Assembly (NCBI GenBank): GCA_943357915.1
Contig: CALRGQ010000005.1
Span: forward strand, 1 to 45,640
Reading direction: 5' to 3'
Source of the DNA: Candidatus Peribacteria bacterium
Lineage (GTDB): Bacteria; Patescibacteriota; Gracilibacteria; Peribacterales; Peribacteraceae
Length of the DNA: 45,640 nucleotides
The position numbers and the translations under genes are program-made. Positions 1,962 through 18,485 of the stretch are shown here, piece by piece. Numbering within the stretch: position 1 is the first letter of the stretch; each line of letters opens with the position of its first letter. The notes under the pieces were generated by a model. It was not told where the DNA came from and did no database searches. It worked only from the letters and a program-made list of their open reading frames with translations.

Positions 1962-2038
1962 TGGTGGGCGATTCAGGACTTGAACCTGAGACCTCGACAT
2001 TATCAGTGTCGCGCTCTAACCAGCTGAGCTAATCGCCC
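1962..2038 (-). tRNA. tRNA-Ile (GAT), CCA encoded
   Basis: Cloverleaf GGGCGATTAGCTCAGCTGGTTAGAGC...CTGATAA...GGTTCAAGTCC...ATCGCCCACCA on the minus strand. Confidence 0.95.
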
Positions 2039-2069
2039 ACGTGAGTGGTGAAATATATGATTGTGGGGA

Positions 2070-2125
2070 AACTAGCTGCTTGTCTCGGCGTAGTCCTCAG
2101 ACGAAGACGGAAGCTAATCGCCCAC
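2070..2125 (-). pseudogene. tRNA-Ile 5' fragment interrupted by the palindromic element
   Basis: AACTAGCTG-[33 nt]-AGCTAATCGCCCAC against intact AACCAGCTG-AGCTAATCGCCCAC (2018-2040). Confidence 0.75.
2079..2111. repeat. 33-nt imperfect palindromic element, same family
   Basis: CTTGTCTCGGCGTAGTCCTCAGACGAAGACGGA inside a tRNA-Ile fragment. Confidence 0.8.
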
Positions 2126-17328: not shown

Positions 17329-17757
17329 ATGAACGTCTCCATCCAACGCATCGATCCAACTCTGCCGCTTCCGCAGTATCACACCGCAGGTGCCGCCGCA
17401 TTTGATCTGGTCACGCGTGAAACGACAGTCATTGCTCCGCATGCGATTGGCTTAGTGCCCGGTAATGTCATTGTGAAGGTTCCAGAAGGCTTTGCACTGC
17501 TTATACTGCCGCGTTCTTCGTTGCCACGTAAAAAAGCGTTGGTCTGTCCGCATTCGCTGGGGCTGATCGATCAAGATTATCATGGACCAAAAGATGAGAT
17601 CTTCGTACAGGTGCAGAACATCTCAGACGCTCCGGTGACTGTCGAAAGAGGGGAGCGGATCGCGCAGGGGTTATTCGTCAAAATCGAGCGGGCAACGTTT
17701 ACAGAGGTCGATTCGCATGGGGTAGAGTCGCGGGGTGGGTTTGGGAGTACGGGGTGA
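17329..17757 (+). CDS. dut: dUTP diphosphatase
   Basis: 'AGAAAFDLVTRE' region, 'LPRSSLPRKKAL', 'GLIDQDYHGPKDEI', 'ERGERIAQGLFV', C-terminal 'SRGGFGSTG' motif V. Confidence 0.95.
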   Translation: MNVSIQRIDPTLPLPQYHTAGAAAFDLVTRETTVIAPHAIGLVPGNVIVKVPEGFALLILPRSSLPRKKALVCPHSLGLIDQDYHGPKDEIFVQVQNISDAPVTVERGERIAQGLFVKIERATFTEVDSHGVESRGGFGSTG

Positions 17758-17826: not shown

Positions 17827-18099
17827 ATGACCAAGACGATTACTGCAACACAAGCACGCAAAGATTTTTTTAAGCTTCTGAAGCAGGCAAAAACACCGGG
17901 GCACTTCGTGACTATTACGATGGAAGGCTTCCCATCAGTTACCATGATGTCCACTGATGAATGGGAGGGATGGCAAGAGACAATGGAGATTATGGCCGAC
18001 CGGAAGTTGGTAAAGCGTCTGCGGGAGGCTCAAGCTGATATCGATGATCCTTCAAAGTGGATTCCATGGGAGCAGGTGAAACGCGAACTGGATCTATGA
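17827..18099 (+). CDS. Phd/YefM-family antitoxin
   Basis: 'KTITATQARKDFFKLLKQA...HFVTITMEGFPSVTMMSTDEWEGWQET'. Confidence 0.88.
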   Translation: MTKTITATQARKDFFKLLKQAKTPGHFVTITMEGFPSVTMMSTDEWEGWQETMEIMADRKLVKRLREAQADIDDPSKWIPWEQVKRELDL

Positions 18100-18350
18100 T
18101 GCTCTCATTAGTCATCCATCGAACGGCTAAAAAATCTCTAGAGCGTTTGCCGAGGAAACACCAGCAACATGTGATAGCGGCAATTGATCTACTTCTGATG
18201 AATCCGTTTCTCGGAAAAAAACTTGAAGGTGTTCATGAGGGAAAGTATACCTTACGAGTTTGGCCTTACCGCATCATCTACAAGTTTGAAAAGAAGCAGC
18301 TGACGATTTACGTCCTTGATATTGGTCACAGACAAGGAGTCTACAAGTAA
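18096..18350 (+). CDS. RelE/YoeB-superfamily toxin
   Basis: 'IHRTAKKSLERLPRKHQQHVIAAI...LEGVHEGKYTLRVWPYRIIYKFEKKQLTIYVLDIGHRQGVY'; ATGA overlap with the antitoxin. Confidence 0.9.
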   Translation: MMLSLVIHRTAKKSLERLPRKHQQHVIAAIDLLLMNPFLGKKLEGVHEGKYTLRVWPYRIIYKFEKKQLTIYVLDIGHRQGVYK

Positions 18351-18353
18351 CTA

Positions 18354-18485
18354 GATCACGCAGACGTTATTCGCTTGCCCGGCGTAGCCCGAAGGCGAAG
18401 TCGGGTCAAAATCGAGCGCGCGACGTTTACCGAAGTAGACGCTCATGGTGTGGATTCGAGAGGTGGATTTGGGAGTACGGGGTGA
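18354..18485 (+). pseudogene. 3' tail of a second, diverged dut copy, interrupted by a 32-nt palindrome
   Basis: Aligns to dut 17658-17757; 14 of 81 nt differ in the last 27 codons but only 2 aa; insert at 18374-18405. Confidence 0.9.
18374..18405. repeat. 32-nt imperfect palindromic element
   Basis: CTTGCCCGGCGTAGCCCGAAGGCGAAGTCGGG, absent at the matching point of intact dut. Confidence 0.85.

Follow-up and report, generated by a model that had tools for sequence, protein, structure and literature searches.

The window analysed here, a stretch of 45,640 nucleotides, is contig C5 in the draft genome (1.39 Mb) of Candidatus Peribacteria bacterium. It carries, all on the forward strand and in this order, an intact dut gene (dUTPase, 17329-17757; Pfam dUTPase 1.2e-22, NCBIfam dut), a YefM/Phd-like antitoxin gene (17827-18099; PF02604, 2.3e-11), its ParE/RelE-like toxin partner (18057-18350; PF05016, 5.3e-11), and a second piece of dut (18354-18485). 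The first-pass annotation had read this second piece as a copy of the gene; it is a displaced 3' tail behind the YefM/ParE-like pair rather than a complete gene. Within the tail lies a 32-nt hairpin element of the CTTG subtype, CTTGCCCGGCGTAGCCCGAAGGCGAAGTCGGG (18374-18405, forward strand; covariance model match 40.5 bits), which consists of the stem CCCGGC/GTCGGG, a 3x3 internal loop GTA/GAA, an inner stem GCC/GGC and a CGAA loop, with a predicted folding energy of -15.3 kcal/mol (z = -2.1).

The hairpin is bounded by dut homology on both sides. On the left, 18354-18373 is identical at 17/20 nt to 17658-17677 of the intact gene (the next best 20-mer anywhere in the window reaches ≤14/20); on the right, 18406-18485, which holds the displaced 3' end and stop codon, is identical at 66/80 nt to 17678-17757 and is also recognized at the protein level (E = 1.4e-9). 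The empty site in the intact gene thus falls between 17677 and 17678. When the hairpin is removed in silico, the displaced tail reads in an unbroken dut frame, ITQTLFVKIERATFTEVDAHGVDSRGGFGSTG up to the stop codon, and the same codon site is uninterrupted in the intact window gene and in 24 dut genes of relatives, none of which (0/24) has the insert. Because dut matches on both sides, the frame is unbroken without the hairpin, and the other dut genes are uninterrupted, the 32-nt hairpin is a discrete insertion, as had been proposed from the letters of the window. No target duplication was found around the hairpin at 18374-18405, and its edge, in contrast to the tRNA-docked units described below, has no CCA.

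The displaced tail has diverged mostly synonymously, and the YefM/ParE-like pair (17827-18350) fills the exact gap between it and the intact gene, as if the pair had come with a replacement dut 3' end. We set aside the idea that the toxin-antitoxin pair is cargo of a dut-targeting unit, since dut homology extends to the left of the hairpin. A dut gene from the same genus (L229, genome G002) is intact except for a different in-frame insertion of 36 nt (protein ...DSH-PSTGSGPILGIG-GVES...), apparently another palindromic repeat, and is followed by the same YefM/RelE-like pair.

A second hairpin of the same family lies at 2079-2111 (forward strand; 41.4 bits). It had been described as a near-identical 33-mer: the copy is real and shares the architecture and the CTTG start, but its sequence has diverged. 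Since an exact pattern of the element matched the window copies only, it was replaced by looser patterns and then by a covariance model (R1: 9 hand-picked seeds, 35 positions, 10 pairs; E-values are rough). With this model the host genome yields 16 matches at E<1e-4 (27 when the limit is E<1), so that copies in the genome are not few, and copies are present in 34 of the 59 genomes searched, nearly all of the 34 belonging to the host family (Peribacteraceae, membership judged from named relatives) and rarely elsewhere. Within that family most genomes have copies. Named records that match family members are Candidatus Peribacteraceae / Peregrinibacteria, which places the host in this CPR group. 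The family plan is NNN-(bulge)-CGGC-GTA-GCC-loop-GGC-GAA-GNCG-NNN. Compensatory changes occur in both stems: 94% of cells pair, compared with 20-40% when the partners are slid by 1-3 columns, and the 3x3 internal loop between the co-varying stems stays nearly constant (GTA/GAA, or TTC/TAC when read from the opposite strand). Elements end in CTTG...CGGG or ATCC...GGAT and occur singly or as inverted pairs, in the manner of REP doublets. Among 288 genomes of the class, 12, all of them in the host family, carry the exact dut subtype, CTTG[C/T]CCGGCG...CGAAG-CGGG, in a total of 17 copies; these copies differ in their inner stems, and the reversed pattern gave 0 matches. A search of Rfam matched only tRNAs and no family for the hairpins.

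Several CTTG solos adjoin partial copies of the 5' end of a gene. At der-like (L373, L374) and typA-like (L372/L129) loci, provisionally named from their translated starts, a solo CTTG hairpin separates the intact start of the gene from a partial, diverged duplicate of its 5' end, a situation similar to that of the dut tail and of the tRNA-Ile fragment at 2079.

Short palindromes are usually attributed to RAYT transposases, and to our knowledge many palindrome families have no known mover. The first-pass annotation called the element a REP/MITE-like mobile palindrome, recognised no RAYT transposase in the window and proposed a search for one; we also find a discrete mobile palindrome of very small size that has an empty site and forms inverted pairs, but the REP/RAYT frame is not supported, and the docking at tRNA 3' ends and the linked nuclease gene described below had been overlooked. 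If the hairpins were REP sequences moved in trans by a RAYT/IS200-type Y1 (HUH) transposase encoded elsewhere in the genome, the 10 Y1_Tnp genes of the host would offer candidates, the clean dut insertion without target duplication is what Y1 transposition would give, and the GTAG within the hairpin and the inverted doublets recall REPINs and BIMEs. However, none of 38 Y1 loci has a confident hairpin copy nearby (best E=0.37), so a Y1 gene as cis partner is rejected; six surveyed genomes of the family have copies yet no Y1 gene; direct repeats, which are not a product of IS200/IS605-type transposition, flank many other copies; and the GTAG is internal rather than at the foot, with neither a GTAG nor a CGTC tag at an end. 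We consider this explanation unlikely. One candidate for a RAYT between hairpins (G005:C28) proved to hold a transporter-like ORF.

The hairpins have a precise relationship to tRNA genes. In a sample of 125 family matches from 81 sequence sources, where loci were chosen from the best-scoring entries and most genomes are drafts, 28 copies share exactly three bases with the CCA end of a tRNA gene, in a single register and all 28 in the same orientation, at tRNAs of nine amino-acid types (Gly, Thr, Leu, Ser, Ile, Gln, Glu, Arg and Pro). A further 23 co-directional matches lie ≤150 nt from a tRNA, mostly as the second hairpin of an inverted pair that starts at the CCA. The docking sites are polymorphic: the tRNA-Leu(taa) gene of the host (G000, C31) is docked, while the syntenic locus in both congeners (G001 and G002; synteny from ~1.4 kb of upstream sequence, 71-72% identical) is bare behind the CCA, and more distant relatives carry other palindromes or none at this position. 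Filled and empty sites were found at dut (24 relatives and the intact window copy) and at tRNA-Leu (G000 versus G001 and G002). The empty syntenic tRNA-Leu site, together with the flanking direct repeats described below, shows insertion.

This bears on the possibility that the hairpins belong to the host's RNA metabolism, as tRNA 3' trailers, processing signals or terminators, with stray copies being relics of duplicated tRNA ends. The fixed position and orientation behind the CCA would suit such a role, as would the pairing of some stems with the CCA itself, but many orthologous tRNAs have no hairpin, including the syntenic tRNA-Leu in the two congeners; copies lie inside dut and other genes; and the hairpins have neither a T-run nor an Rfam family. 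The empty sites already contradict this reading, and we regard it as very improbable.

A second large palindrome family, in which CCA is followed by CGTAAA...TTTACGTG, also docks at tRNA CCA ends (L213, L216, L217, L225, L333, L348, L354, L356). Its hairpin plan is unlike that of the window family, and several of its members precede another lineage of the nuclease gene described next; at L213, L216 and L217, TATAAT-like boxes lie only ~8-10 nt before the start codon of that gene, which suggests leaderless transcripts.

Downstream of several docked pairs lies an ORF of ~79 codons (~80 aa) that encodes a GIY-YIG domain (PF01541, 2.5e-14) with the catalytic residues Tyr, Tyr, Gly, Arg, His and Glu invariant. 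Its nearest solved structures are UPF0213 proteins and SLX1; it is a bare catalytic domain, in which a DNA-binding part is not evident, and it encodes no joining activity. The closest homologues in the host family (59 genomes searched) lie mostly right beside hairpin pairs, and in the host genome two of these genes (G000:C52 and C36) adjoin related hairpins. A co-directional tRNA lies 42-481 nt upstream of the gene at 20 of 30 GIY-YIG loci, and at most of the tRNA-linked loci a palindrome starts at the tRNA CCA, even where its sequence is quite different; the same upstream tRNA arrangement was found at 0 of 38 control Y1-transposase loci, and none of 25 control dut loci has a tRNA. A wider scan of 85,462 species genomes, made with a narrower alignment because the first was too diverse, gave 80 named GIY-YIG loci, from Peregrinibacteria, Alphaproteobacteria, Rickettsiales, Legionella and others, and 59 of these 80 genes lie <350 nt behind a co-directional tRNA. 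In the hairpin nearest the tRNA (H1), the internal loop recurs: TTC or TCC stands opposite TAC, TTC or TAT in 26 of the 28 H1 hairpins whose stems are perfect, while the stems vary (CGGC, CGCC, CGCT, CCTGC, CACGC, CAGGC) and some include the tRNA's own CCA as pairing partner. Across GIY-YIG-linked H1 hairpins, shape is conserved rather than sequence.

The gene is missing beside most hairpins. Only 6 of the ~28 docked copies in the host family have an adjoining GIY-YIG gene, the correlation between element copy number and GIY-YIG number per genome is weak (rho 0.41, p 0.012, 36 genomes), and 7 copies come from a single genome in which neither GIY-YIG nor Y1 genes were matched. These observations, and the pedigree of GIY-YIG proteins as classic homing endonucleases (PMC1564403), would fit a gene that is a passenger, or a homing gene spreading by homologous repair at tRNA genes, next to hairpins that are separate repeats with another mover. 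Such an arrangement would not explain why units bounded by repeats of their target hold hairpins and gene together, nor why separate GIY-YIG lineages share one plan although their stems differ. The GIY-YIG protein could be a passenger rather than the mover; we give the separate-mover explanation a modest chance, well below that of a joint element.

The repeats that bound these units match their own targets. Behind the GIY-YIG gene there is often a second copy of the 3' end of the unit's own tRNA, from the T-loop to the CCA: 19 nt for tRNA-Ala (L277) and tRNA-His (L274, L283), 20 nt for tRNA-Cys (L309, where another hairpin comes next), and 19 nt, one of them mismatched, for tRNA-Ser (L293). 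In a control of 576 mismatched pairs, nearly all values were ≤11, with two at 15 and 18. Gene-less hairpin pairs behave in the same way, with repeats of 19 nt at tRNA-Glu (L152), 18 nt at tRNA-Ile (L164) and 15 nt at tRNA-Ser (L189), and, outside tRNAs, of 14 nt at L192 and of 17 nt, one of them mismatched, at L188; the maximum among 810 mismatched control pairs was 10. When longer flanks were compared, 16 of 93 clusters exceeded the 99th percentile of the control, and non-tRNA sites had repeats of 14-26 nt. These tests were designed after examples had been seen, though with controls, and whole tRNA copies (L275, L270) were left out of the evidence. In the window, the copy at 2079-2111 is accompanied by a 14-nt direct repeat, AGCTAATCGCCCAC, just above the control 99th percentile: the left copy (2027-2040, forward strand) lies within the 5' end of a tRNA-Ile gene (1962-2038, minus strand), and the right copy (2112-2125, forward strand) abuts the hairpin. 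Target duplications had been proposed as something to look for; direct repeats of 14-20 nt flank many other copies, and none was found at dut.

Repeat-delimited units are mostly 394-436 nt long and are filled by hairpins, the GIY-YIG gene and short flanks. A complete unit (~0.4 kb) has the order tRNA ending in CCA, H1, a second hairpin (H2), the ~80-aa GIY-YIG gene, in some cases a right-end hairpin, and the tRNA 3'-end repeat; shorter units without the gene, either inverted pairs or single hairpins, occur at tRNA ends and elsewhere. At L208 a right-end hairpin of the CTTG type stands directly before its repeat, and the CTTG solos match the right-end hairpins of GIY-YIG units by resemblance only. 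At L203 (G005:C79), tRNA-Ser is followed by tandem copies of the docked hairpin unit and then by the GIY-YIG gene, as if insertion had been repeated. At L275, L270 and L306 the units are followed by additional tRNA copies, whole or nearly so, and such insertions may accompany duplication of the tRNA gene.

Repeats running from the T-loop to the CCA are also what integrases leave, this being a known sub-location for them in tRNA genes, and together with the exact docking at tRNA ends they could point to satellites, short elements with attachment sites that are moved in trans by a tyrosine recombinase, an enzyme that often uses tRNA 3' ends. But the repeat at each tRNA (Ala, His, Cys, Ser, Ile, Glu) is that tRNA's own sequence and so looks target-derived, non-tRNA sites also bear repeats of 14-26 nt, the hairpins abut the repeats, and the linked gene encodes a nuclease; no integrase gene was found inside the repeat-delimited 394-436 nt units. 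We judge integrase satellites to be distinctly unlikely. Because each repeat follows its own target, we read the flanking repeats as probable target duplications in preference to attachment sites that the element brings along.

We therefore favor, with some confidence, the interpretation that the hairpins are non-autonomous members of an element of ~0.4 kb that encodes a nuclease and is directed to tRNA 3' ends, with the nuclease as the putative mover. The compensated stems, the register of CCA docking, the GIY-YIG linkage, the empty tRNA-Leu site, the target repeats and the unit size count for this model; the many docked copies without an adjoining GIY-YIG gene, the genome with 7 copies and no GIY-YIG match, the weak genome-level correlation, the bare catalytic domain with no joining activity, and the dut copy without duplication or CCA count against it. 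In the proposed mechanism, the GIY-YIG nuclease would recognize the folded hairpins and make staggered nicks in the tRNA gene, at the T-loop on one strand and behind the CCA on the other, ~15-20 nt apart; repair would then insert the element and duplicate 14-20 nt, leaving the tRNA intact. Gene-less hairpins, including the dut copy, would be moved in trans by such a nuclease or would be solo remnants, and the dut hairpin would be a solo, non-autonomous member of the mobile family. It resembles the right-end hairpins but has no duplication, so its mobilisation by a GIY-YIG nuclease is putative, and CTTG solos may instead be moved by a Y1 transposase or in some other way.

The broader claim is more tentative. 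The units may represent a new class of bacterial transposable element, although we hold this at somewhat less than even confidence: a ~0.4-kb unit whose sole protein is a bare GIY-YIG nuclease that would recognize folded hairpins with a fixed 3x3 loop, inserting at tRNA CCA ends with target duplications of 15-20 nt, its gene-less hairpins spreading as MITEs, in Patescibacteria, Alphaproteobacteria and others. If this is true, movement by a GIY-YIG nuclease would give palindromes a second and independent means of mobility, and it would explain the frequent small GIY-YIG genes after tRNA genes in CPR bacteria and Alphaproteobacteria. The element would be a selfish one of minimal size, using tRNA genes as landing pads that are kept functional, and with components of ~80 aa and 100 nt the idea is directly testable. 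We regard its novelty as provisional: no literature joining GIY-YIG, tRNA 3' ends and palindromes was found, in a search whose scope excluded preprints and most subscription journals.

It is instructive to compare the proposed element with known systems. With REP/REPIN sequences and their RAYT (TnpA-REP) it shares short imperfect palindromes in many copies, as singles and inverted doublets, and gene-less copies whose presumed mover is a trans-acting enzyme encoded next to palindromes; it differs in having a GIY-YIG nuclease instead of a Y1 transposase, docking at the tRNA CCA, flanking direct repeats, no GTAG foot, and a fixed internal loop with variable stems. Like MITE-like palindromes and the Rickettsia palindromic elements, RPE-like families of tiny non-autonomous palindromes that also land in genes, its solos can fall within genes; the text consulted on those elements (PMC3733652) describes neither tRNA docking nor a nuclease gene, and they have another sequence and do not follow the same internal-loop rule. 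Free-standing GIY-YIG homing endonuclease genes are likewise small selfish genes with this catalytic domain, but classic homing addresses one allelic site, whereas here the gene travels with hairpins into many tRNAs with target duplication. Tyrosine-integrase elements at tRNA 3' ends also produce T-loop-to-end repeats and restore the tRNA; the units described here are ~0.4 kb, have no integrase, and have a repeat derived from each target. Finally, Penelope-like retroelements combine a GIY-YIG endonuclease with target duplications, while the present unit, which has no reverse transcriptase, is bacterial and ends in hairpins.
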